From: Gelidibacter sediminis
GTDB taxonomy: Bacteria; Bacteroidota; Bacteroidia; Flavobacteriales; Flavobacteriaceae
DNA: 64,000 nt
Direction: 5' to 3'
NCBI RefSeq assembly: GCF_004364975.1
Contig: NZ_SOBW01000009.1
Location: forward strand, 62,001-126,000
The first letter of the stretch is position 1; each line of letters starts with the position of its first letter. A program made the translations under genes and the position numbers. Below the pieces are notes generated by a model. That model was given only the letters and a program-made list of their open reading frames with translations, made no database searches and had not been told where the DNA came from. This document shows, piece by piece, positions 10,272 to 60,393 of this stretch.

Positions 10272-10301
10272 CAAAAATAATTTTTTTGTTGTAAGAAACA
10301 A
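10272..10301 (-). promoter_or_regulatory. Promoter of the DUF2795 gene (-33 TTG, 19-base spacer, -7 TATTTTTG)
   Basis: Read on the minus strand, TTG (10301-10299) is followed by exactly 19 bases and then TATTTTTG (10279-10272). Both boxes and the spacing match the Bacteroidota primary sigma consensus. Transcription would begin a few bases below 10270, giving a leader of about 15-20 bases. Confidence 0.8.
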
Positions 10302-10406
10302 GTAAAAAATGAATTATTTAATCATTAATAAAAAGAACGTATAATTCTTACATAATTTCTTAACTATCAATATATAATCAAAAAAAATGTGACTGCCTAA
10401 TATATC

Positions 10407-10982
10407 TTAAGATTCTTTTTTAGGAATCCATTGAATTTCTTCGGCTTCCAGTTCATGAGACAACTTCCGTGCCAACACAAAAAGATAGTCGGATAACCGA
10501 TTCAGATAGGTTAAAGATTCCGGTTGAAACGGTTCTAAGTCATTAAGGGCAGAGGCTAAACGCTCCGCTCTACGGCAGACACAGCGTGCTATATGACAGA
10601 ATGACACGGTTTGATGGCCGCCTGGTAATACAAAATGTGTCATTGGGGGTAAGGCATCGTTCATTCGATCAATTTCCTTCTCTAAAAGTTCAATGTTTTC
10701 AGTTGAAATTTTGGGAATGTTTAATCGCTCTTTACCATTTTTAAGCGTTGCCTTAGCTGGGTCTGTGGCTAAAATTGCACCCACTGTAAAAAGACGATCT
10801 TGAATTATAATTAAAATATCTTTATAGTGCTGCTTAATTTGTTGGTCCCTGATAAGGCCCAAATGCGAATTAAGCTCATCTACAGTGCCATAACTGTCAA
10901 TGCGAATATGGTGTTTAGGAACTCTTGTCCCGCCAAATAGAGCGGTGGTCCCTTTGTCTCCTGTTTTAGTATAGATTTTCAT
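10407..10982 (-). CDS. ATP:cob(I)alamin adenosyltransferase, PduO/MMAB type
   Basis: This enzyme transfers the 5'-deoxyadenosyl group of ATP to cob(I)alamin, making adenosylcobalamin for enzymes such as methylmalonyl-CoA mutase or class II ribonucleotide reductase. At 191 residues it has the usual length for the family. The N-terminal ATP-binding motif YTKTGDKGTTALFGG starts near residue 4 and SYGTVDELNSHLG is at about 30-42. CRRAERL near 131-137 holds the arginine expected at the ATP/subunit interface, and YLNRLSDYLFVLAR near the C-terminus is characteristic. No other cobalamin genes are adjacent, consistent with a salvage role. The ATG start is supported by the conserved N-terminus. Confidence in the function is high. 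Confidence 0.93.
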   Translation of the reverse strand: MKIYTKTGDKGTTALFGGTRVPKHHIRIDSYGTVDELNSHLGLIRDQQIKQHYKDILIIIQDRLFTVGAILATDPAKATLKNGKERLNIPKISTENIELLEKEIDRMNDALPPMTHFVLPGGHQTVSFCHIARCVCRRAERLASALNDLEPFQPESLTYLNRLSDYLFVLARKLSHELEAEEIQWIPKKES

Positions 10983-11024
10983 AGTTCTAAGTTTTACAGC
11001 GCGAAGCTTGAAGGAAATGAATTA

Positions 11025-11032
11025 CGAAGATA
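11025..11032 (-). promoter_or_regulatory. Probable -7 element of the cobalamin adenosyltransferase gene
   Basis: On the minus strand this reads TATCTTCG, one change from TAnnTTTG. The same octamer serves as the -7 element before the initiating transferase at 60468. It lies 43 bases before the ATG. A TTTG occurs upstream but about 4 bases further away than the usual 19, so this is moderate evidence only. Confidence 0.45.
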
Positions 11033-11087
11033 CAATAGATTGAAAAGTTTTGCCACAAATACAGGAATGAATTTTGGGAAGATTGGG

Positions 11088-11304
11088 GAGTTAGGAGTGA
11101 GAAGTTAGGAGTGAGAAGTTAGGAGTGAGGAGTGAGGAGTGAGAAGTTAGGAGTGAGGAGTTAGGAGTTAGGAGTGAGGGGTGAGGTTTGAGTGCTGAGT
11201 ACTGCGAACTGCTTACTGCCAACTGCTGACTGAGTACTGCCAACTGCTGACTGAGTACTGCCAACTGCTTACTGCCAACTGCTGATTGAGTACTGCCAAC
11301 TGAA
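11088..11304. repeat. Tandem heptamer array, about 31 units, two sequence classes in one register
   Basis: From 11088 the sequence breaks cleanly into 7-base words. About 15 words of the type GAGTGAG, GAGTTAG or AAGTTAG pass through GTTTGAG and TGCTGAG into about 15 words of the type TACTGCC, AACTGCT or GACTGAG. The register is not lost where the sequence class changes. The array fills the space between the stop of the ABC ATPase gene (11314) and the promoter region of the adenosyltransferase gene. No spacer structure of the CRISPR kind exists. Function unknown. Confidence 0.9.
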
Positions 11305-11313
11305 GCCTGAACC

Positions 11314-11997
11314 CTAATTCCTCACATCGCTTTCAATCATACCATCCCTTAAACGGATAATGCGTGCTGCACGGGCCGCAACATCTTCTTCGTGAGTGAC
11401 TACAATTACAGTGTTCCCAGCAGTATGAATATCGTCAAACAATTGTAAGATTTCCAAAGAAGTTTTGGAATCCAAATTTCCGGTAGGTTCATCTGCCAAA
11501 ATAATGGATGGCTTGTTTACAAGTGCCCGTCCAACCGCCACACGTTGGCGTTGACCACCCGAGAGTTCATTAGGTTTGTGATGAATTCGGTCCGCTAAGC
11601 CTACGTCGGTCAGTACCTCTGTAGCACGGGCTTCACGGTCGGCTTTAGAGGCGCCGGCATAAATCATGGGTAAGGCCACATTGTCCAATGCAGTTGTTCT
11701 TGGCAATAAATTAAAGGTTTGAAATACAAACCCGATTTCTTTATTTCTGATTTCTGCCAGTTGGTCATCACTCAGTTTGCTGACATCTTGGTTGTTTAGA
11801 ATATACGTTCCAGAGGTTGGCGTGTCCAAACATCCTAAAAGATTCATCAAGGTCGATTTTCCAGAACCTGACGGACCCATAATGGCCACATAATCACCAC
11901 GTTCAATATCTAAATCGATACCTTTTAAAACATAGACCGTTTCTGAGCCTAATTGAAAGTTTCTGACGATATTTCTGATGTGAATGACGTTATCCAT
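11314..11997 (-). CDS. ABC transporter ATP-binding protein, LolD/MacB family
   Basis: The protein has 227 residues, a stand-alone nucleotide-binding domain. Walker [10 protein letters not shown] is at 41-49, the Q-loop VFQTFNLLP at 91-99, the signature LSGGQRQR at 145-152, Walker B IILADEPT at 165-172, and the switch His in VVTHEE near 200. The spacing and the [13 protein letters not shown] text are typical of the LolD/MacB/FtsE group, which drives lipoprotein release, macrolide/peptide efflux or cell-wall hydrolase control. No permease gene is adjacent, so the partner and substrate are unknown. The start is ATG at 11997. A long heptamer repeat begins 10 bases past the stop. Confidence 0.88.
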
Positions 11998-12094
11998 GTG
12001 ACGGTTTAATGTGTTATTTCTGATTACAGTGTGTCGATTTGAACCTGCAAAATAAACGATTTACGATTCATATGACGTGTAAAGGCACAAGATG

Positions 12095-12865
12095 TTACAC
12101 TCTAATTTTAAAATGTTGCTTTAATTGCTCTCTTCTAAAAAAGACGATGCCCCAATTAAAGGTGTCAACTGTAACGGTGACTTGAGGGTGGTTTTTGATG
12201 ATTTCCCATGCTTCCGTCATGCCATTTGACCAGTAAATATCGTCAAACACAAAAATAGAGTCGTTGTGAGCTGTGGGTAGAAGCATCTCGAAATAAGCTA
12301 ATGTAGACTCCTTGGAATGGTGCCCGTCAAAAAAAATAAAATCCCATGTGGATTGTGGCAGTTTAATGAGGGTCGTGTTAAAATCCCCTTGGATACTTTT
12401 AATGTTGGTGAGTTTTTTATCCGAAAAGTTTTGAGTCGCTACTTTTAACAATTCCGGGCAGCCTTCAATCGTCGTGATGTTAGCACTAGGGTGAGCTAAA
12501 GCCATAGCATGTGTGCCGATGCCAAGGTTGGTGCCCAGCTCTAAAACATGATCGGGCTTAAAATAATTTACCAAACGATAGAGTAGCTTTGTGTTTTTTA
12601 AACTTGTGCCCGAAGTTTTGGCAATGGCGTTAATAGGACGGTCATTTGTTTTGAAAACCTTTGAACCTGATCCGAAATCGGTAATATGGATGACGTCAGT
12701 GTTTTTAAACAACTCCCTACGGTACGATGCAATTTCAGCATACGCTTCATGTTTTGATCGGTCATAAAAACATTTCGTAACCAAATTGTACACAAACGGG
12801 GAATGAATCCCGTGTTGGTTGGTGGATTTTAAAATGAAGTTTATGTAAGATAACAATTGGTGCAC
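12095..12865 (-). CDS. Class I SAM-dependent methyltransferase, small-molecule O-methyltransferase-like
   Basis: The protein has 256 residues. The Rossmann SAM motif HVLELGTNLGIGTHAMA is at about 106-122, the acidic residue after strand 2 is in TTIEGCPE (131-138), and FIFFDGHHSKE at about 177-187 with FVFDDIYWSNG at 205-215 fits motifs near the metal or substrate site of O-methyltransferases. The N-terminal 100 residues (HQLLSYINFILKSTNQHGIHSPF) form a conserved Bacteroidota extension. It is soluble and cytoplasmic by appearance. Substrate unknown. It is not obviously in an operon; a heptamer array separates it from uup, whose stop lies about 300 bases upstream of this start. Confidence 0.8.
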   Translation of the reverse strand: MHQLLSYINFILKSTNQHGIHSPFVYNLVTKCFYDRSKHEAYAEIASYRRELFKNTDVIHITDFGSGSKVFKTNDRPINAIAKTSGTSLKNTKLLYRLVNYFKPDHVLELGTNLGIGTHAMALAHPSANITTIEGCPELLKVATQNFSDKKLTNIKSIQGDFNTTLIKLPQSTWDFIFFDGHHSKESTLAYFEMLLPTAHNDSIFVFDDIYWSNGMTEAWEIIKNHPQVTVTVDTFNWGIVFFRREQLKQHFKIRV

Positions 12866-12893
12866 GGTTGTAAACGAGTTGCCTTGATGCTTC

Positions 12894-13159
12894 TATTTAG
12901 TATTTAGTAGTCAGTATTCAGTATTCAGTGTTCAGTCTTCAGTATTCAGTATTCAGTATTCAGTTTTCAGTATTCAGTATTCAGTATTCAGTGTTCAGTA
13001 TTCAGTGTTCAGTATTCAGTATTCAGTGTTCAGTATTCAGTATTCAGTATTCAGTTTTCAGTCTTCAGTCTTGATTCTTGTCTCTTGATTCTTGACTTTT
13101 AGTTCTCTTCTTTATATTCTCTTCTCTATATTCATGTCTTTATTCTCTTCACTTTATTC
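12894..13159. repeat. Tandem heptamer array, about 38 units (TATTCAG type drifting to TCTTGAT/TTTATTC types)
   Basis: Starting at 12894 the sequence can be cut into 7-base words: TATTTAG, TAGTCAG, then a long run of TATTCAG with TGTTCAG, TCTTCAG and TTTTCAG variants. These change into TCTTGAT, TCTTGTC, TCTCTTC and TTTATTC words without losing register. The array ends 14 bases before the uup stop codon on the minus strand. The complement of its main word (CTGAATA) is the main word of the array at 60198-60393. Function unknown. Confidence 0.9.
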
Positions 13160-13172
13160 TCAACCCTCAAGT

Positions 13173-15035
13173 TTAAGATTCCAGTTTCTCTGAAAGTTCA
13201 AACCAGCGCTCTTCCTTAACAGCAATATCCTCTATTATTTTCTGCAATTCTTCAGACAGCTGATTGATTTTTTCCTGGGATAAGGATGCATCAAGGAATT
13301 TTTCCTCTAAGGCTTTCTTATCCAATTCTAAAGATCGGATTTTGCTATTTAGGGATTTCAGTTCTTTTTGCTCGTTATAAGATAACTTTTCTGCGGTATT
13401 GTCTTTGGTGTTGCCACCATTTGCAATTTCAGTTTTTACAGGCTCTACATAAGGTGTTGACGCTTCATAATCGCGGTAGTCTGAATAATTTCCTGGAAAA
13501 TCTTCAACCTCACCATTCCCCCTAAACACAAATAAATGATCGATAATCTTATCCATAAAATACCTGTCGTGAGACACCACAAGTAAACATCCAGGAAAGT
13601 CTAACAAGAAATCTTCAAGCACATTTAAGGTTACAATATCTAAATCGTTGGTAGGCTCATCCAAAATTAAGAAATTCGGATTTTGTATCAATACCGTACA
13701 TAAATACAGTCGTTTTTGTTCGCCACCGCTCAATTTTTCGACAAAATCATATTGCTTTTTGCGGTCGAATAAAAACTTTTCCAAGAGTTGCGAGGCGCTA
13801 ATCTGACGTCCTTTTGTCAATGGAATATATTCGCCATAGTCCTTGATCACATCAATAACTTTTTGGCCTTTCTTAATTTTAATGCCACTTTGAGTGTAAT
13901 ATCCAAACTTTACGGTGTCGCCAATAATCACCTTCCCAGAATCGGGCGTGATGGTTTGGGTCAACATGTTCAAGAATGTCGATTTTCCAGTGCCGTTTTT
14001 GCCGATGATGCCAATACGTTCTCCTTTTTTAAACACATATTCAAATCCGTCTAAAATGACTTTATCTTTAAACGCCTTAGACACCTTATGAAATTCGACA
14101 ATTTTACTGCCCAACCGCTCCATAGTGATTTCTAATTGGATTTTATGGTCATTTCGGCGTTGGCTGGCCTTGGCCTTGATATCGTGAAAATCGTCAATTC
14201 GCGATTTAGATTTGGTGGTTCGCGCCTTAGGTTGACGGCGCATCCAATCCAATTCTTTTTTAAAGAGCTGCTTGGCTTTGCCGGTCTCAACCGTTTCATT
14301 GGTAATACGGGCCTCTTTTTGTTCTAAATAATAAGAATAGTTTCCTTTATAGGTGTAAAGTTTACCATGGTCCAATTCGATGATTTCATTACAGACGCGT
14401 TCCAGAAAATACCGGTCATGCGTTACCATAAATAAGGTCATCTGTGCTTTGGCAAAATACTGTTCCAACCATTCAATCATTTCCAAATCGAGGTGGTTGG
14501 TAGGTTCATCCAATACCAAAAGGTCAGGATTGTTGATCAATGCTGTGGCCAAAGCCAAACGTTTCTTTTGGCCTCCAGAGAGTGTCTTAATTTTCTGGGT
14601 CAGGTCATCTAATTTTAGTTGGGAGAGAATTTGTTTGAAACGCAATTCAAATTCCCATGCATTATGACGGTCCATGCCTTCAAAGGCCTTCTGATACGCC
14701 TCACTGTCTTCCGGATTTAAAAGCGCTTTCTCATAACTTTCAATCACTTTTAAAATGGGTAGGTCAGAATTGAAAATGGTATCCTCAATAGTCAAGTTTT
14801 CATCATATTGCGGCGACTGTGATAAAAATGACAAGCGCAATCCCTTTCTGATCACCACTTGCCCATCGTCAGGTTGGTCCAAGCCCGAGAGGATATTGAG
14901 AATGGAAGTCTTGCCACTCCCATTTTTTGCCACAAAAGCAATTTTATCATCCTTGTGGATGCTAAAGGAAAGATCTTCAAATAGCGCTACTTCGCCATAA
15001 GATTTTGAGATGGATTCAACAGTTAAATAATTCAA
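13173..15035 (-). CDS. uup: ABC-F family ATPase Uup
   Basis: The protein has 620 residues with two ABC ATPase domains and no transmembrane segment. Walker A motifs are AKNGSGKT (about 37-44) and GKNGTGKS (about 343-350). Signatures LSGGQKKR and LSGGEQKR lie near 152 and 433, each followed by LDEPTNHLD or LDEPTNDLD. The linker of about 70 residues between the domains is basic (RRQPKARTTKSKSR). The last 80 residues form a coiled coil (ELKSLNSKIRSLELDKKALEE), the mark of Uup, which binds DNA/ribosomes. ABC-F proteins of this class act at the ribosome and have been linked to branched DNA intermediates and transposon excision. The ATG at 15035 leads directly into the first conserved strand. Identity at subfamily level is good. 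Confidence 0.9.
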   Translation of the reverse strand: MNYLTVESISKSYGEVALFEDLSFSIHKDDKIAFVAKNGSGKTSILNILSGLDQPDDGQVVIRKGLRLSFLSQSPQYDENLTIEDTIFNSDLPILKVIESYEKALLNPEDSEAYQKAFEGMDRHNAWEFELRFKQILSQLKLDDLTQKIKTLSGGQKKRLALATALINNPDLLVLDEPTNHLDLEMIEWLEQYFAKAQMTLFMVTHDRYFLERVCNEIIELDHGKLYTYKGNYSYYLEQKEARITNETVETGKAKQLFKKELDWMRRQPKARTTKSKSRIDDFHDIKAKASQRRNDHKIQLEITMERLGSKIVEFHKVSKAFKDKVILDGFEYVFKKGERIGIIGKNGTGKSTFLNMLTQTITPDSGKVIIGDTVKFGYYTQSGIKIKKGQKVIDVIKDYGEYIPLTKGRQISASQLLEKFLFDRKKQYDFVEKLSGGEQKRLYLCTVLIQNPNFLILDEPTNDLDIVTLNVLEDFLLDFPGCLLVVSHDRYFMDKIIDHLFVFRGNGEVEDFPGNYSDYRDYEASTPYVEPVKTEIANGGNTKDNTAEKLSYNEQKELKSLNSKIRSLELDKKALEEKFLDASLSQEKINQLSEELQKIIEDIAVKEERWFELSEKLES

Positions 15036-23324: not shown

Positions 23325-23600
23325 TTTTTAGCTTGTATTAAAAATTTATATTAAAGTTTGTTTACCAGCTAGGCTTTTTTAGACTTGGGCAACGTGCATA
23401 CAACGGCGCCTTTGTAATTGGTTGTCAAGCTTATGAGCTTCTGATGGGACAATATTAGGGAGAAGTTTTTCAGTTGTTTGTCAATATTTCCGTTTCTGCA
23501 CTATAGGGGGCATCTTTGCTAAAGGAGCTGTTTATTTCCTTAAAAATTTAGCTATCATTTACACTTTAGTCTGCAGGCCATGCACGCTATTTACAATCTT

Positions 23601-23656
23601 CATACACTATCCATACAGCATCCATACAGCATCCATACAATATCCATACATCATTC
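23601..23656. repeat. Five tandem 11-base iterons, consensus CATACANNATC
   Basis: Units start at 23601, 23612, 23623, 23634 and 23645: CATACACTATC, CATACAGCATC twice, CATACAATATC, and a diverged CATACATCATTC. A step of 11 bases puts every unit on nearly the same face of the helix, as in arrays bound by replication initiators or transcription factors. The nearest gene is the HTH-like gene at 24394, about 740 bases away. Confidence 0.75.
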
Positions 23657-24020
23657 ATATATCTTATTGGATAAATTTAAATTTTTTTATACAGCTAAGC
23701 TTCCAAACTAAACTATGTCCGCGATGCCAAATTATAAAATGATTGATGCTCATACCCAAAAAAAAGAACTATTGAACTCAACTGATTTCGGTTTTGATAT
23801 CCTACTCCTTTTTTTTATGAAGTATATTTTTGGGAAAGCCACTACAGATAACTACTCTTATTTCTGTACTATAAATTTATAGTAAAGCAATAGTATCTTG
23901 GTGTACCTAATGGCTCTGGGAAATTCTAGATTTTGGGATCTTTATAATATTTCGGTAGTCTCAGGCAATGACCTAAGACACTACGCTGAAAGACCTAAGA
24001 CATAGGGCATGCTTTGCGAG

Positions 24021-38458: not shown

Positions 38459-40285
38459 ATGTGCGGTTTCCTAGGAGAATTTACTTTTCAAAAACATCCA
38501 TTAAGAGAAGCGTCTTCCTTTAAAAGGCTTTTGGCACTGTCTACACATCGGGGGCCTGATTCAAGTGCATTTACAAGAGGTGCTGGATATCAATTAGGTT
38601 TTAACCGATTGGCTATTTTAGATCTTTCCCCACAAGGAAATCAGCCTAAACAAAGCCTGAGTGGTAGGTATCAGGTCGTGTTTAATGGAGAAATTTATAA
38701 TTATAAAGATTTAGCGAAGAGTTATGATCTGACTAATTTAGCTTCTAGTTCTGATACAGAAGTGTTGATTCATTTACTAGATAGTCAAGGTGTAGAAGCA
38801 ACTGTTCAACTTCTTAATGGGATGTTCGCTATTGCTATAATAGATATTAAAGCAGATTGCTTATACCTTACACGAGATTTTGCTGGAATTAAGCCCTTGT
38901 TTTATGGAGTAGCTACAGAAGGAGTAGTCATGGCCTCTCAGTTTGACCAAGTATATAAGCATTCATGGTTCTGTAGGTCACTAGACTTAAAACCTGAAAT
39001 AGTAAAAGAGTATTTTGGTTTTGGTTATATGCAAGCGCCCAATACCATTTATAAATCTGTTTTTCAAGTCAACCCTGGTGAATTAATACGGATAGATAGG
39101 GAAGGAAATACCTCTAAGAAAAAACTGGTTTCCTTCACAAAAACGCAAAAACCAGTATCAACCGAAACTGTATTATCATCTATTGTACAACATGCCGTTT
39201 CTAAGCAACTGGTGAGTGATGTTCCTATTGCCGCTTTTTTGAGTGGTGGTATTGATAGTCCCTTAATTTCTGCCTATGCAAAAAAACAAATCCCTAGTAT
39301 TGAGGCATTCACATTGGAGGTTGATAACCCTAACTTAAATGAAAGCGAGATAGCGAAGGCTTATGCAAATCATTTAGAAATAAAACAACATATTGTTCCA
39401 GTTAAGGAATCGGACTTATTATCAGAAATTGATACACATTTTAAGGCTTATCCGGAACCCTTTGGTGATTATTCTAGTATCCCGACATATGTTATTGCTA
39501 AGGAAGCCAAAAAGAAACATACGGTGATGTTGTCGGGAGATGGAGGTGACGAATTGTTCTGGGGGTATCCTCGTATGCTAGATATTATAAATAAACGCTG
39601 GTGGTTTAAGTTGCCATTTTTCCTGAGGAAGCCTTTGGTGCAGGTGACCAATAAATTAGGGTTTACTAATACTTGGGCTCCTTATTTCAGAAATTTAAAT
39701 GCTTTTATTAGTAACAAACATTTACAAATACCTAAAAGCACTTTGGATAAAGCCTTTCCATTGGTTTCTCATTCATCAGAGATGCAGGAGTTATATCAAT
39801 TTAAGAATTCAGGAACTAAAAGCTTGTTACATCAATTACGGTGGAATGAGTTTTATGCACATTTACAGCGGGTATTAATAAAAGTAGACCGTGCTAGTAT
39901 GGCACATAGTTTAGAAGTTCGTGTTCCTTTTTTAGATAAAAATAGCATTGAATGGGCTTGGAATCAAGAAGGACAGCTCCGAACGAAACAGGATTTAAAA
40001 AAGGAGTTGAAGAGTTTATTGGCTCAAGTGGTTCCTGAATCGGTAATAAATCAAAAGAAGATGGGGTTTACGGTGCCTTTAAAAGTTTGGTTACGAAAGG
40101 AATTACAAACGGATGTGATGCATGTGGTTTTTGAAACTCCTTTTTATGGTGCTGAGGTTATGGATGTGACGGTGCTGCAAGATTATGTTCGAGATTTTAT
40201 TGATAAAAAACATGATAATGCTTGGGGAGTATGGCATATTTATGCATGGCAGAAGTGGTGGCTGGCACATGGGGTTGATAGTTAA
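38459..40285 (+). CDS. asnB: Glutamine-hydrolysing asparagine synthase (AsnB family) in the glycan locus
   Basis: The protein has 608 residues. The N-terminal glutaminase domain begins MCGFLGEF; the Met is removed to expose Cys2 as nucleophile. STHRGPDS, GFNRLAILDLSPQGNQP and NGEIYNY are its conserved blocks. The synthase domain has the PP-loop SGGIDSP at about 260-266 and later MLSGDGGDELFWGYPR and VRVPFLDKNSIE. In general metabolism it makes asparagine, but AsnB homologues within O-antigen and capsule loci (WbpS type) amidate uronic acids. With tviB/tviC upstream, amidation of a GalNAcA-type residue is the more likely job here. A short heptamer array begins two bases after the stop. Confidence 0.88.
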   Translation: MCGFLGEFTFQKHPLREASSFKRLLALSTHRGPDSSAFTRGAGYQLGFNRLAILDLSPQGNQPKQSLSGRYQVVFNGEIYNYKDLAKSYDLTNLASSSDTEVLIHLLDSQGVEATVQLLNGMFAIAIIDIKADCLYLTRDFAGIKPLFYGVATEGVVMASQFDQVYKHSWFCRSLDLKPEIVKEYFGFGYMQAPNTIYKSVFQVNPGELIRIDREGNTSKKKLVSFTKTQKPVSTETVLSSIVQHAVSKQLVSDVPIAAFLSGGIDSPLISAYAKKQIPSIEAFTLEVDNPNLNESEIAKAYANHLEIKQHIVPVKESDLLSEIDTHFKAYPEPFGDYSSIPTYVIAKEAKKKHTVMLSGDGGDELFWGYPRMLDIINKRWWFKLPFFLRKPLVQVTNKLGFTNTWAPYFRNLNAFISNKHLQIPKSTLDKAFPLVSHSSEMQELYQFKNSGTKSLLHQLRWNEFYAHLQRVLIKVDRASMAHSLEVRVPFLDKNSIEWAWNQEGQLRTKQDLKKELKSLLAQVVPESVINQKKMGFTVPLKVWLRKELQTDVMHVVFETPFYGAEVMDVTVLQDYVRDFIDKKHDNAWGVWHIYAWQKWWLAHGVDS

Positions 40286-40286
40286 A

Positions 40287-40314
40287 ATTGAAGAATGAAG
40301 AATGAAAAGTGAAT
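40287..40314. repeat. Short heptamer array after asnB
   Basis: Four words: ATTGAAG, AATGAAG, AATGAAA, AGTGAAT, starting two bases after the stop codon. Short, but of the same 7-base step as the long arrays. Confidence 0.5.
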
Positions 40315-47709: not shown

Positions 47710-48890
47710 GTCGACCACTTAAAATTGCCATTTATTCTGGTGAAATTCCAAGCACCACATTTATTGAGCGCCTTGTCACCGGTATTGCAAATTCAGGTGC
47801 TGAGGTCGTGCTTTTCGGAGTGTTACATCGTAAACCGTTGTATGACTCACGGGTTAAGATTATAGCCTATAAACACATGCGACTATCTAAGTTGTTCCAT
47901 TTAGTTCGATTTTCTATATTGCTTAAATTGTTCAAGGCGCAGAAAAAAAAGCGTTTGGATGCTTATTTAAAAACCAGAGATTCTCTTAATTTATATTCCA
48001 AAGTAAAATATTATCCTGTGTTATGGCACCAACCCGATGTGTTCCATCTACAATGGGCCAAAGGTTTGGACGATTGGATGTGGGTACAGGATTTTGGAAT
48101 GAAGTTGGTGTTGAGTTTACGTGGTGCGCATATTAATTATTCACCAGTCGCTGATACTGCATTGGCAGAGATGTATAATAAAAATTTCCCAAAAGTTGAT
48201 GGGTTTCATGCGGTCTCCAATGCCATGATTATGGAGGCTCAAAAGTATAATGCACTAGCAAATCGTATTCAGGTTGTGTATAGTGGTTTGGATTTGAACA
48301 CGTTGACTGAAATTGATGCTAGAATGCCATATGATAAAGCTATATTAAAAATAATTTCGGTGGGCCGTCCGCATTGGATCAAAGGGTATACCTATGCTTT
48401 GGATGCATGCAGACTTTTAAAAGATGTAGACATTAACTTTGAATATACAATTATTGGCGGTGCAGAGTCCATTGAATATCAATATCAAGTCCACGATTTA
48501 GGTTTGGACAATGAAGTTCGATTATTAGGGCCGCATGAATTCGATGTAGTGCAACATATGATCCAAGAATCCGACCTGCTTTTATTGCCAAGTGTTAAAG
48601 AAGGTATTGCCAACGTGGTATTGGAGGCGATGGCTTTAGGAACCTTGGTGTTGAGTACTGATTGTGGAGGAATGAATGAGGTCATTACAGATGCCGTGAA
48701 TGGATTTCTGGTGCCTGTTCGAGATGCAGAAGCTATTGCTGATGCTATTGTTCGCATAAGAAAATTATCGCCCGAGGAACAGTTATTGATCAAAAAGAAT
48801 GCGCAGGATACTATAAAACAGCAACACAACGTAGAAGGAATGGTTTCCGGTATGATGACACTTTATAATGAGGTAGTAGGTGTTAGGTAG
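47706..48890 (+). CDS. Family 4 glycosyltransferase with its C-terminus in a heptamer repeat
   Basis: The protein has 394 residues. The N-terminal domain opens KIAIYSGEIPSTTFIERLVTG. The C-terminal domain holds KIISVGRPHWIKGYTYALDA, FEYTIIGGAE, VRLLGPHEFDVVQHMIQESD and PSVKEGIANVVLEAMALGTLVLS, the GT4 nucleotide-sugar site. It overlaps the SGNH-like gene (ATGA). The last codons, EVVGVR and the TAG stop, are made of heptamer words (GTAGTAG, GTGTTAG), so the repeat array has probably replaced or extended the natural C-terminal end. The sugar is unknown. Confidence 0.86.
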   Translation: MSRPLKIAIYSGEIPSTTFIERLVTGIANSGAEVVLFGVLHRKPLYDSRVKIIAYKHMRLSKLFHLVRFSILLKLFKAQKKKRLDAYLKTRDSLNLYSKVKYYPVLWHQPDVFHLQWAKGLDDWMWVQDFGMKLVLSLRGAHINYSPVADTALAEMYNKNFPKVDGFHAVSNAMIMEAQKYNALANRIQVVYSGLDLNTLTEIDARMPYDKAILKIISVGRPHWIKGYTYALDACRLLKDVDINFEYTIIGGAESIEYQYQVHDLGLDNEVRLLGPHEFDVVQHMIQESDLLLLPSVKEGIANVVLEAMALGTLVLSTDCGGMNEVITDAVNGFLVPVRDAEAIADAIVRIRKLSPEEQLLIKKNAQDTIKQQHNVEGMVSGMMTLYNEVVGVR

Positions 48891-48928
48891 TAGGTGTTAG
48901 GTGGGAGGTGTTAGGTATTAGGTGGTGA
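48873..48928. repeat. Heptamer array across the stop codon of a glycosyltransferase gene
   Basis: Eight 7-base words: GTAGTAG, GTGTTAG, GTAGTAG, GTGTTAG, GTGGGAG, GTGTTAG, GTATTAG, GTGGTGA. The TAG stop at 48888-48890 lies inside. TAG in a 7-base step appears in all three frames within 21 bases. Confidence 0.75.
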
Positions 48929-51196: not shown

Positions 51197-52219
51197 GTGA
51201 CAATTTTAATTTTTTATACTCGATCCTCTGGTCATTTATCTCGTTTTTTTGAAGAGGTCTCTAGGCAGTAAGCTAAAGATGGTTATGAAGTGCACAATTT
51301 TTCACTTAATCAAGAAGAGATGTGGAAAAAAAACATGGTGTTTATAAAAGTTGAAAAAAAAGGAGGCTATTTGATTAATTATTATGAAATATATAAAATT
51401 ATTAGAACAGTTAAGCTTAATGTAGTTCTATCCAATTTTAGCTATGTGAATCCAGCCCTGTTATTTGGGAAGATATGTGCTATAACCAAAAACATTGTAT
51501 GGTTTCATTCCTTAAATGAACAAACAGGGGCTTTATTAATGAATATTTTCATAAGGATAAGTTTTTTAAGGCTGGCAGATGTCATTATCGCTAATTCACA
51601 TCATACGAAAGATGAACTTCATCAAGATTTTAAAATTTCTATTTCTAAAATTAAAACAATTCCGTTTTGGTCATCAATTAATAAAGACAACATTGAAAGG
51701 AGTTATAAAATAGTCTCAAAAGTATTGAAAATAGGATGTCCTGAAAGATTGGTAAAAAATTAAAATCAAAAAGTAGTTTTGGAAGCTTTAGCTTTTTTTA
51801 AGAAAACCGATTATAATTTTTATATGGCAGGAACTGGTCCAAATAAAAATGAATTAGAAGCACATTGTGAAAAATGAGGAATTCACGAACAAGTAATTTT
51901 TAGAGGTAATCTGTCAGCCAATGAGATGGTTGTTTTTTAAAGAGATATGGACGTTATCATTCTAGCTAGTTTGTCTGAGGCATTAGGTTTAGTGTTTGTC
52001 GAAGCTATTTCGCTAGGCTGTCCAATTATAGTATCCGCCAAATTTGGTGCCTTAACTTTTATATAAGATAAAGATGTTTTAGAAAGCATTACGTTCGATC
52101 CTAAATCTGTTGAAGAGCTATTCGATCCTAAATCTGTTGAAGAGCTAAAAGATAAACTTAAGCCTTATTTTATCAATAGAGGTTCTTCTTCTGAGCATTT
52201 TAAATATATTTATATATAA
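51197..52219 (+). pseudogene. Family 4 glycosyltransferase pseudogene with five in-frame stops and no frameshift
   Basis: A single reading frame from GTG 51197 to TAA 52217 encodes a recognisable GT4 protein: TILIFYTRSSGHLSRFFEEV, then HNFSLNQEEMW, IVWFHSLNEQTG, ADVIIANSHHTKDEL, YNFYMAGTGPN, EQVIFRGNLSANEM, DVIILASLSEALGLVFVEAI and FDPKSVEEL. Stops interrupt it at 51269 (TAA), 51761 (TAA), 51875 (TGA), 51938 (TAA) and 52064 (TAA), yet no insertion or deletion shifts the frame anywhere. A 27-base direct duplication at 52094-52120 and 52121-52147 repeats FDPKSVEEL. Each stop is one substitution from a sense codon. The longest open piece (51290-51763) encodes only part of the fold. Loss of function is by far the simplest reading. 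Confidence 0.87.
52094..52147 (+). repeat. 27-base tandem duplication inside the glycosyltransferase pseudogene
   Basis: Two identical, in-phase 27-base units (52094-52120 and 52121-52147) encode FDPKSVEEL twice. Their perfect identity points to a recent duplication in a sequence that otherwise is decaying. Confidence 0.9.
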
Positions 52220-53203: not shown

Positions 53204-54541
53204 ATGCCATTCCTCTTTTTAAAATATCTCCAACCTACACACTATTTTCGTTTGTCTACGAACGTTGGCGCAACTGTGTTTCCTATAGTTGCTTGTTTGC
53301 CAGAGGAGGTTGTTAAGCAACTACAATGGGATGAAGGCTACACCTCCCAATTAGCTAAAGATTATGATTTATCATATCAGGCTGTACAGTTAGGTTATAT
53401 AGGCGTGGCTGATACGTATACTGATTTTGAATCTGTTTCAATACGGGATAACTATCATTTTATTCGCAAACACTTCCACCCTGCCTGGGTGTTTTATGTT
53501 ATGTTGATGCGAATTGTAACACACCATAATCCGATTAAGGAATTGCGCGCATGGTGGCAAACATCGTCTGTTAACCGCTCTGTTTCCAATTTAAATCCTC
53601 TAGTCTACCCCGAATGGCAATCTTATACCTCCAATTTAATAGCCCAACAGCCTTTAGTCAGCGTAATCATTCCAACTTTGAATCGTTATGAATATTTAAG
53701 CGATGTTTTAAAGGGTTTTGAAAAACAGGATTACGGGCATTTTGAAATTATTGTGGTAGACCAGTCGGAGCCCTTTCAATCCGATTTTTACAATAATTTT
53801 GATTTAAACCTTCGGGTCATTCGTCAGGACGAAAAAGCGTTGTGGTTGGCACGGAATAGAGCCATACAAAAAGCTAAAGGTGCGTTTATTGCGCTATCTG
53901 AGGATGATGTACGCATCCAACCTGATTGGATCTCGACACATTTAAAAGTGTTGGACTTTTTTAAGGCGCAAGTGTCGGCAGGTGTTTTTTATCCAGAAGA
54001 GCAAAGCATCCCAAAAGAAAGGTCTTATTTTGCATTGGCAACACAGTTCGCTACAGGCAATGCCATGCTTTATAAATCAGTTTTTGAAAAGGTAGGATTA
54101 TTCGATCGACAATTTGAAAAACAACGGATGGGTGATGGTGAATTCGGTTTACGTGTATATTTAGCGGGTATTAAAAGTGTTTCTAATCCGTATGCGAGTT
54201 GTATAGATGTAAAAGCAGGAACCGGTGGATTAAGAGAAATGGGAAGTTGGGATGCGTTTAGGCCATCCTCGTTTTTTGCACCAAGACCTATCCCTAGCGT
54301 ATTGTATTATTTTAGAAAATATTATGGCAATTCAGCGGCCCGATGGGCATTGCTACGAACGATACCTTTGTCAATCATGCCGTATCAGTTTAAAAAAAAC
54401 AAACCACTGTTGTTGATTGGAGTGCTCTTGAGTATCTTGCTACTGCCTGTAGTGCTTGTTCAGGTGATGAGAAGTTGGCGCTTGGCGAGTGAAAAGTTGA
54501 AGGAGGGGGACCGGATTGAAAGATTAGAGATTGAAGATTGA
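53204..54541 (+). CDS. Family 2 glycosyltransferase with an N-terminal extension
   Basis: The protein has 445 residues. The GT-A core starts late, at about residue 150: PLVSVIIPTLNRYEYLSDVL, IIVVDQSEP, ARNRAIQKAKGAFIALSEDDVRIQPDW (in segments) and GNAMLYKSVFEKVGLFDRQF. The first 150 residues (LPEEVVKQLQWDEGYTSQLA, FESVSIRDNYHFIRKHFHP, YVMLMRIVTHHNPIKELRAWW) belong to no family I recognise. A hydrophobic helix (KPLLLIGVLLSILLLPVVLVQ, about 399-419) near the C-terminus suggests membrane attachment. The final residues RLEIED and stop fall in a heptamer array. The sugar is unknown. Confidence 0.84.
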   Translation: MPFLFLKYLQPTHYFRLSTNVGATVFPIVACLPEEVVKQLQWDEGYTSQLAKDYDLSYQAVQLGYIGVADTYTDFESVSIRDNYHFIRKHFHPAWVFYVMLMRIVTHHNPIKELRAWWQTSSVNRSVSNLNPLVYPEWQSYTSNLIAQQPLVSVIIPTLNRYEYLSDVLKGFEKQDYGHFEIIVVDQSEPFQSDFYNNFDLNLRVIRQDEKALWLARNRAIQKAKGAFIALSEDDVRIQPDWISTHLKVLDFFKAQVSAGVFYPEEQSIPKERSYFALATQFATGNAMLYKSVFEKVGLFDRQFEKQRMGDGEFGLRVYLAGIKSVSNPYASCIDVKAGTGGLREMGSWDAFRPSSFFAPRPIPSVLYYFRKYYGNSAARWALLRTIPLSIMPYQFKKNKPLLLIGVLLSILLLPVVLVQVMRSWRLASEKLKEGDRIERLEIED

Positions 54542-54555
54542 AGATTGAAGATGAA
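54521..54555. repeat. Heptamer array across the stop codon of a glycosyltransferase gene
   Basis: Five words: AGATTAG, AGATTGA three times, AGATGAA. The TGA stop at 54539-54541 is part of the array. Confidence 0.65.
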
Positions 54556-59242: not shown

Positions 59243-60218
59243 TACTGGTTATAGTTCTGTTTTAGGACCTTTGCTTGAGCAAAGTGGCTATGACGTGCGT
59301 TATACTTCTGAGAAGTCTAATAAGGCCTTGAGACTTTTAGAGATGCTTTGGACAACATTTAGCACTCGAAAAAAGACAGCTGTTGTCCTTATTGACACTT
59401 ATAGCACTCAGAATTTCTATTATGCAGTGTTGGTGAGTCAACTGTGCCGGGTTTTGAAGTTACCATACATCCCGATTCTTCATGGTGGTAATTTGCCATT
59501 CCGTTTAAAGAAGACTCCTTATTTGTCCAAAGCACTTTTTAAAAACGCTTTGGTTAATGTGTCTCCGTCTACATATTTAATAGAAAACTTTGCAACATTA
59601 GGATATCAAAATGTGGTTTATATTCCGAATGTCATCACTCTAGAAAACTACACATACAGTCCAAAACCAGTTGATGTTCCAAAATTGCTTTGGGTGCGCT
59701 CTTTTTCTAAAATTTACAACCCTAAGCTAGCAGTTGAGGTTTTAAATGAACTTCAACAACGTGGTTATAAAGCTACATTAGCAATGGTTGGTCCTGATGC
59801 AGATGGGAGTTTAGTTGAGGTCAAAACTTTAGCCAATGCACTCAATGTAGAAGTTGCTTTTACAGGAAAGCTTTCAAAAACAGATTGGATTGCACTTTCT
59901 AAAGACTATAATGTATTTATCAATACCACCAATTACGATAATACACCTATTAGCGTGATTGAAGCTATGGCCCTGGGGCTTCCTGTAGTTTCTACAAATG
60001 TGGGTGGGATGCCGTATTTGATTACTGATGGTGTTGATGGAATTTTAATCCTACCTGATGATAAAGTAGTAATGGCAGATGCCATTTGTGCGCTTTTTGA
60101 GAATCCTTCTCATGCTGCAGCATTAGCGGATAATGCAAGACTTAAAGTGGAGCAATTTGATTGGCGGAAGGTTCGGGGGCTTTGGGATGAAGTGTTGAGA
60201 GTAAAGAATAGAGAATAA
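59193..60218 (+). CDS. Family 4 glycosyltransferase with its C-terminus in a heptamer repeat
   Basis: The protein has 341 residues. It opens NVLYVGNHLQNSQSNTGYSS, has ILHGGNLPFR and NVSPSTYLIENF in the N-terminal domain, and PKLLWVRSFSKIYNPKLAVE, LAMVGPDADGS and NTTNYDNTPISVIEAMALGLPVVS in the GT4 donor domain. The start ATG 59193 overlaps the Wzy-like gene by 50 bases; the conserved text begins at residue 2, so this overlap is real. The last residues VKNRE and the stop TAA are formed by the first words of the long heptamer array. The sugar is unknown. Confidence 0.86.
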   Translation: MKNVLYVGNHLQNSQSNTGYSSVLGPLLEQSGYDVRYTSEKSNKALRLLEMLWTTFSTRKKTAVVLIDTYSTQNFYYAVLVSQLCRVLKLPYIPILHGGNLPFRLKKTPYLSKALFKNALVNVSPSTYLIENFATLGYQNVVYIPNVITLENYTYSPKPVDVPKLLWVRSFSKIYNPKLAVEVLNELQQRGYKATLAMVGPDADGSLVEVKTLANALNVEVAFTGKLSKTDWIALSKDYNVFINTTNYDNTPISVIEAMALGLPVVSTNVGGMPYLITDGVDGILILPDDKVVMADAICALFENPSHAAALADNARLKVEQFDWRKVRGLWDEVLRVKNRE

Positions 60219-60393
60219 AGAATAAAGAATAAGGAATAGAGAGAAGAGAGAAAGGGGAATAATGAATACTGAATTTTGAATAACGAATACCGTATTTTGA
60301 ATAACGAATAACGAATTTTGAATAGCGAATACTGAATATTGGATTCTGAATACTGAAGACTGAAGACTGAGGACTGAAAACTGAATACTGCGT
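60198..60393. repeat. Tandem heptamer array, about 28 units, starting inside a glycosyltransferase gene
   Basis: From 60198 the sequence breaks into 7-base words AGAGTAA, AGAATAG, AGAATAA and so on, shifting through GGGGAAT into AATGAAT, ACTGAAT, TTTGAAT and AACGAAT, and ending with ACTGAAG, ACTGAGG and ACTGAAT. The register holds throughout. The ACTGAAT words are the complement of the TATTCAG array at 12894-13159. The array ends 26 bases before the promoter of the final transferase gene. In either strand it can be translated as 7-residue repeats, but no real gene is implied. Confidence 0.9.

Follow-up and report, generated by a model that had tools for sequence, protein, structure and literature searches.

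The 64,000-nucleotide stretch of the Gelidibacter sediminis genome analyzed here, referred to below as the window, contains a spacer that is filled with consecutive 7-base words, and the words in one half of it look quite unlike those in the other. The initial annotation reasoned that ordinary slippage copies the same unit, and that a change of word class with the step kept at exactly 7 suggests a mechanism that fixes length rather than sequence. The question raised by this locus is whether such a mechanism is needed. The features concerned are the following.

10407–10982, minus strand: cobalamin adenosyltransferase gene (PF01923 match), downstream of the array
11076–11313, minus strand: heptamer array of 34 heptamers (238 bases), starting right at the ABC-ATPase stop codon
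11184–11212, minus strand: class junction within the array, sense chain CAGTACT-CAGCACT-CAAACCT-CACCCCT-CACTCCT-AACTCCT
11314–11997, minus strand: ABC transporter ATPase gene (PF00005 match), ending with TAG; its stop codon adjoins the array

The array had been placed at 11088–11304, with 31 words, between an ABC ATPase gene and a cobalamin gene. The place and the ABC assignment stand, the cobalamin gene can be specified as an adenosyltransferase gene, and the length has to be corrected to the extent listed above. The array runs from the ABC-ATPase stop codon (complement at 11314–11316), which its edge abuts, to the anchor AAAATTC on the minus strand, a distance of exactly 34 x 7 bases; a further 93 bases separate it from the adenosyltransferase start codon. 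The period scan set its boundaries at 11081–11322, and the overlapping TRF rows include calls at 11087–11186 and 11195–11303.

On the sense strand, CAGTNNN words lie nearest the stop codon and are followed by CACTCCT/AACTCCT words. The description of two classes joined by intermediate words at a step of 7 is upheld: the array matches itself at 0.71 for lag 7 and at 0.66–0.74 for lags 14, 21, 28 and 35, compared with 0.17–0.32 for lags 1–6 and 8–13, and the junction is graded. What appears as a class change is a chain of words that mostly differ by 1–3 substitutions per step. The mean Hamming distance between words is 2.06 at lag 1 and grows to 2.88 by lag 10; at lag 20 it reaches 3.79, compared with the 5.13 expected of composition-random words. 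With the word order shuffled, the distance between neighbors is 2.97 ± 0.22, as opposed to the real value of 2.06. Most words have an identical or near-identical copy at most five units away, and the nearest word within five units lies at a mean distance of 0.44, versus 3.35 for random words. Similarity also decays with distance in two other arrays of the window, at 12894–13162 and 60190–60390. Such decay along an array is isolation by distance, i.e., the outcome of local copying combined with base substitution.

Our best explanation, to which we assign a probability of roughly two in three, is that this is an intergenic heptamer array of a known kind, probably functionless, in which whole heptamers are gained and lost while single bases drift. 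The gains and losses would occur by replication slippage or unequal recombination. The register would persist because misaligned copies pair well only if displaced by a whole number of array periods. Since copies would be made locally, neighbors would be alike and distant words would have diverged, so that the two ends look like two classes. We infer slippage from what it would leave behind, rather than from having observed it, and the lack of function is likewise our inference.

We simulated slippage and substitution with no length-fixing process, starting from six copies of a random heptamer and growing the array to 34 units. With multiples of 7 making up 60% of the slips attempted, a setting that favors the result, 89 of 540 arrays (27 settings with 20 arrays each) resembled the real ones and had no register break. 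A second simulation removed this preference, and 64 of 720 arrays (36 settings with 20 each, no preferred step length) still did so. Register breaks were judged by our own criterion, and the counts refer to arrays that reached 34 units, failed growth having been restarted. Most simulated arrays are unlike the real ones; the window's two longest arrays each have one invariant column. The simulations begin from a seven-base array, and they are silent on why the unit is 7. Within these models, slippage with substitution would be sufficient for a class change that keeps the register, which does not identify it as the actual process. Given drift in small steps, near copies within five units and an intact register in this minority of simulations, a dedicated register-keeping mechanism is not needed, contrary to the original proposal. 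A register that is held through sequence change need not imply dedicated machinery.

Orthologous spacers show how the array has changed. Among nine genomes of the genus, the ABC-ATPase and adenosyltransferase genes are adjacent in G. sediminis and in the genomes G205 (a sister species), G013, G199 and G203; the adjacent pair was not found in the stretches examined from the other four. G205 and G013 have the same two-part array, in the same order, in this spacer. G199 has other heptamers there (GTTCGGT, CTTCTAT), and G203 has no period-7 array above the threshold, a period-8 stretch being called instead. From GAGGAATTAG to AAAATTC, the spacing is 238 in G. sediminis and 119 in G205, a difference of 119 bases or 17 heptamers. 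Two anchors further out give a difference of 120, the additional base lying outside the array. G013 is without the near anchor, and by the far anchor it differs from G. sediminis by 10.

Six array pairs could be measured between G. sediminis and G205, a seventh being unmeasurable. Three of these differ by a multiple of 7 (119, 14 and 0) and three do not (12, 22 and 12), the array ends in the latter three being poorly alignable. In the array at 12894–13162, 23 ACTG words are absent from G205, and the more degenerate stop-proximal part is common to both species. Where both flanks of a G. sediminis locus could be mapped in the G205 DNA, five of nine orthologous segments contain period-7 DNA above the threshold; in the opposite direction, seven of eight segments do, a ninth that mapped to a 12-kb segment having been set aside. 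One G205 array (L189:17212) at first appeared to be absent from G. sediminis. A remnant of a few words is present there, so we claim no empty site.

Further afield, period-7 DNA occurs in this spacer in 7 of 29 syntenic relatives, with differing words (L036, L045, L046, L071, L078, L089 and L102). Judged by the adenosyltransferase, the nearest named loci belong to Psychroserpens, Algibacter, Winogradskyella and Lacinutrix (84–89% identity). In six relatives (L035, L048, L049, L051, L055 and L067), a short AACTTTT-like heptamer array adjoins the adenosyltransferase start codon; we take these arrays to resemble a repeated Bacteroidota -7 promoter element, TAnnTTTG. Elsewhere in G013 (L169), a unit some 150 bases long (a very rough estimate), comprising heptamer stretches and a AATCAGCGTTATCTGCGTTC-like segment, recurs several times in an 883-base spacer between methyltransferase and ABC-F genes, and a similar segment occurs in the corresponding spacers of G201–G204.

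The initial annotation named five further arrays, starting at 12894, 40287, 48873, 54521 and 60198, and proposed that such arrays are a general feature of the genome. A period-7 scan at score 16 recovered all five:

12894–13162, minus strand: second array, 38 words in a register-locked chain; sense AGAATAA-type, then AATCAAG, then the 23 ACTG words (mostly ACTGAAT)
40274–40313, plus strand: weak short array of TTGAAGA/ATGAAGA words; score 16.2, under the cut-off of 18 of the genome-wide period count
48871–48925, plus strand: short array of TAGGTGT/TAGGTAT words; overlaps the upstream reading frame at its end
54521–54552, plus strand: short array of AGATTGA words, overlapping the upstream reading frame's end, two thirds inside the frame
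60190–60390, plus strand: third long array, 28 words, changing from AGAATAA-type to ACTGAAT-type

The window also contains an intergenic period-11 array at 23592–23663 (CATACAGCATC) and a 27-base unit in perfect tandem duplication at 52094–52147 (TTCGATCCTAAATCTGTTGAAGAGCTA).

The genome-wide proposal is borne out in an 864-kb sample, consisting of the window and 40 systematically placed 20-kb stretches, at a score cut-off of 18. Period 7 outnumbers every other unit length, with 15 arrays, followed by periods 14 (three), 21 (two) and 35 (one); any other period has at most two. Among 27 arrays of period 7 or a multiple of it, 23 have less than half of their length in called reading frames. The sister species has 13 arrays of period 7, one of period 14 and at most two of any other period. 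In the loci from relatives, coding DNA included, there are 57 arrays of period 7, 31 of period 6, 11 of period 8, seven of period 33 and at most four of others. Exact intergenic runs of at least three copies at period 7 number 13 in G. sediminis, 28 in 80 relatives' loci and 15 in the genus stretches. The corresponding numbers are 0, 5 and 0 for period 6, 2, 6 and 0 for period 8, and 0, 1 and 0 for period 11, while periods 5, 9, 10 and 12 have none; pooled over periods 5–12 other than 7, they are 2, 12 and 0. A lack of excess over periods 6, 8 or 9 would have counted against the proposal; period 7 exceeds all three.

Merging loci of intergenic period-7 arrays gave 13 in 924 kb of G. sediminis, 10 in 352 kb of G205 and 27 in the 1.45 Mb from relatives' loci. 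Intergenic arrays that do not belong to the period-7 class number 6, 0 and 18 in these samples, respectively, and 11 of the 18 have period 8. In the intergenic autocorrelation of G. sediminis, lag 7 is the highest of lags 2–30, at 11.2 standard errors above the median. When the arrays are masked it drops to 3.7, and lag 2, at 8.2, is then higher. In the loci from relatives, lag 7 comes to 13.2 and is surpassed by lag 3, at 15.1.

We also considered whether 7 is preferred when repeats are born. Outside arrays, exact two-copy duplications of period 7 occur at 2.4 times the Markov expectation in G. sediminis (11 versus 4.5) and at 2.1 times in relatives (21 versus 9.8), compared with 1.3–1.8 times for periods 6 and 8. 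We rejected a preference at birth on this basis and place the bias toward 7 mostly in growth or spread.

Three further explanations invoke function, coincidence or error. An assembly artefact is extremely improbable: tandem arrays can be mishandled by short-read assemblies, but in the G205 and G013 assemblies, too, this spacer holds counterparts of the array, whose words differ in part. Two unrelated arrays that abut in phase by chance would fit the halves as they appear by eye. We consider this very unlikely, given the graded intermediates, the presence of both halves in the same order in G205 and G013, a chance of about 1 in 7 for equal phase, and the two other arrays of the window that are equally graded. 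A functional gene-end element, e.g., a terminator, a protein-binding array, an mRNA 3' element or a fail-safe series of stop codons (7 not being divisible by 3), would account for the crowding of array edges at upstream stop codons. In tandem spacers, the edge lies at most 5 nt from the upstream stop in 8 of 16 cases in G. sediminis, in 15 of 31 from relatives and in 8 of 19 from the genus, where 2.4, 6.2 and 2.9, respectively, would be expected, and the stop codon itself is often within the first word of the array. These expectations assume uniform placement with 60 nt left free on the promoter side where the spacer allows, and the counts include orthologous spacers repeatedly and rely on genes called simply as the longest ORFs. 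However, the size of the excess hinges on the handling of short spacers: when those shorter than the exclusion are taken as certain, a hand calculation for edges at most 15 nt away gives about 10.7 expected and 10 observed in G. sediminis, and about 14 and 16 in relatives. Over all gene ends, a second copy of the stop codon stands at +7 in 37 of 551 cases in relatives (15–31 at the other offsets tested) and in 14 of 333 in G. sediminis (7–16), a weak signal, and we leave nucleation at stop codons as suggestive. Further points against a gene-end element are the spacer of G203, with its lack of an above-threshold period-7 array, and the strand, which is not fixed: one array has CAGT as its sense word, the following one ACTG. 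Reading the arrays as RNA elements or terminators was unsupported in the two arrays tested: no Rfam family was found in 10300–13300, and the two arrays showed no terminator-like site inside them and no excess of sense-strand RNA structure (z of -0.99 and +2.37). We accordingly regard a gene-end function as improbable. As for gene orientation, the 23 G. sediminis arrays outside reading frames lie in 16 tandem, 6 convergent and 1 divergent spacers (52, 14 and 24 kb of intergenic DNA, respectively), and those of relatives in 49 tandem, 5 convergent and 1 divergent (107, 15 and 28 kb).

Another alternative is amplification directed by sequence, in which a fixed tetramer (ACTG; GTCA elsewhere) is recognized or serves as priming microhomology every 7 bases, the other three bases being free. 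This would fix the spacing and give loci a common core. In support of it, changes on word trees of ACTG arrays fall 43 times in the four core columns and 162 times in the three others, compared with 2369 and 2943 for other tetramers picked likewise; the split recurs in G. sediminis (14:46), G205 (9:37), the genus (15:57) and other relatives (5:22), one G. sediminis array being counted on both strands. However, picking the best tetramer biases such a count. With picking built in, the ratio is 0.36 for 24 ACTG-type arrays and 0.45 for 45 others, compared with null ratios of 0.63–0.84 in neutral trees and 0.43–1.29 in slippage simulations, so that most null models show somewhat weaker conservation of the best-conserved tetramer than the real arrays do. 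With no core preselected, changes on the minimum spanning tree of words do not depart significantly from an even spread among the seven columns (combined P 0.25; 59 arrays, each having 8 or more words and 6 or more counted changes), and a cold-block test is not significant either (combined P 0.18). The three most variable columns are contiguous in 26 of 78 arrays (15.6 expected). The signal of an architecture with four constant and three variable bases is strong if ACTG is chosen but mild when the core is picked unsupervised, and it does not reach significance in the column test; we leave it as suggestive.

The distribution of cores between genomes likewise speaks both for and against directed amplification. 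The whole G. sediminis genome has 149 overlapping matches to four ACTGNNN words and none to four GTCANNN words, and G205 resembles it in this respect. With the ACTG core at a spacing of 6 or 8, or with the core reversed, G. sediminis has no match. Some other Bacteroidota have the GTCANNN core, likewise at a spacing of 7: four genomes that were picked for high counts (G487, G320, G303 and G376) have 202, 258, 123 and 139 matches, respectively, and no ACTGNNN. On the other hand, both cores occur together in G199 of the same genus (150 ACTG and 42 GTCA matches), G313 (201 and 435) and G258 (69 and 37); G333 also has both. In a sample of 199 genomes of the family, ACTG occurs at spacing 7 in 68, at spacing 6 in 25 and at spacing 8 in 6, and the reversed core at spacing 7 in 30 (counted from the listing). 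In a phylum sample, in which spacing 7 alone was searched, ACTG occurs in 116 of 296 genomes. On balance we think directed amplification unlikely.

The preferred reading, drift with gain and loss of whole heptamers, has to be complemented in one respect, as the words are shared between loci. Of 13 intergenic loci in G. sediminis, 12 have a 12-mer in common with another locus, compared with 2 in a reversed control; for 10-mers the numbers are 12 and 5, and for 14-mers 9 and 0. In G205, 8 of 10 loci share a 12-mer, and none do in the reversed control. In these tests loci less than 3 kb apart were merged; the 13 loci exclude arrays more than half in reading frames and six pattern-chosen stretches (L218–L223). 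Between genera, 14-mers are shared in 22 of 1025 pairs of G. sediminis and relatives' loci, versus 9 of 1025 in the reversed control, the G. sediminis loci here including the six stretches. Local slippage from independent seeds does not explain this sharing, which requires either a sequence preference or loci that seed one another. Our guess is that seeding between loci is the source of the common words. If arrays seed one another, the dominance of 7 in one genome may reflect one founding family; its dominance across lineages would need explanation even with one founding family per genome. A stronger version, which we view as rather doubtful, is that the arrays of the genome form one interlinked, self-seeding family of an invariant tetramer and a free triplet, in which priming or recognition every 7 bases sets the unit and the tetramer (ACTG, GTCA) is swapped between lineages.

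Some additional observations concern the organization of arrays. Nine arrays have a register-locked flank without ACTG that measures 3 units or more (those of the window at 11081–11322, 12894–13162 and 60190–60390, and L126, L145, L218, L221, L222 and L223; L145 is an inverted pair, and L218–L223, retained in this count, were chosen by pattern). Read on the ACTG strand, eight of the nine have the longer flank on the 5' side of the ACTG block, which may hint at polar growth. In G487 (L204, L205, L206, L207 and L209), GGATGAC/AGATGAC arrays occur as inverted pairs roughly 20–400 bp apart, forming long inverted repeats; between their arms, the first pair of L204 and that of L207 have one and the same core, which contains hairpins (TGCGAGACCTCTGGTCTCGCAC, GTCGCCTCTGGCGAC), and in this they look like a dispersed element. 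At L220 in G. sediminis (contig C1, near 277.2–277.5 kb), a ACTGAGGACTGCGG block occurs three times at a 106-base spacing, a higher-order repeat carrying heptamers.

No description of such arrays in Bacteroidota had been known to the initial annotation. In fact, according to MacGregor 2015 (PMC4679880), TAACTGA and mixed heptamer arrays occur in Beggiatoaceae, Cyanobacteria and Bacteroidetes, with heptamer arrays in five Bacteroidetes, some of which have other heptamers within the same spacers. A limited literature search found no paper on register-locked word drift as such. The arrays in that account are, like ours, dispersed intergenic tandem arrays with a core that contains ACTG. Gramella forsetii and Aequorivita sublithincola are described there as having other heptamers in the same spacers, which resembles what we see here. 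Two Cyanothece strains are described as differing mostly by indels in 7-nt steps; in our case this pattern holds at the main locus between the nearest anchors, and for three of the six measured pairs overall. One array of G. sediminis (L111) contains TAACTGA twice in tandem. By contrast, neither strand of 11076–11313 contains TAACTGA, and its words drift along the array. The Beggiatoaceae genome described there also differs from the present case, in that its arrays are mostly placed immediately before start codons and its related heptamers seldom occur as repeats.

Rehm 2015 (PMC4692102) describes GGGAATC and GGGGA(C/T)T heptamer repeats in Xanthomonas and Nostoc that are, as here, genome-wide, have a genome-specific core, are over-represented in non-coding DNA and are few between divergent genes. 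Two Xanthomonas genomes are stated to keep 83% of sites with extensive variation in length and sequence, and inverted repeat pairs also occur among those heptamers. Unlike ours, the repeats are reported there as G-rich, as forming G-quadruplexes in vitro and as preferring four units (range 2–26); no set of four GGG tracts spaced by 7 bases exists on either strand of 11076–11313, and in this window the long arrays comprise 28–38 words.

The array studied here belongs to a set in which unit 7 is over-represented, which is mostly intergenic and scattered, and whose words are common to loci. It is a well-resolved new case of the kind already reported by MacGregor 2015 and Rehm 2015. The genus makes the old open question of the bacterial preference for unit 7 testable: the sister pair keeps many sites while length and words change, lengths can be read between anchors, and cores differ within the phylum at one spacing. 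As cited in PMC4679880 and PMC4692102, Mrazek 2007 found long heptanucleotide SSRs to be over-represented in prokaryotes and advanced a polymerase-footprint hypothesis; the over-represented unit is 7, as here, and the hypothesis addresses the same question.
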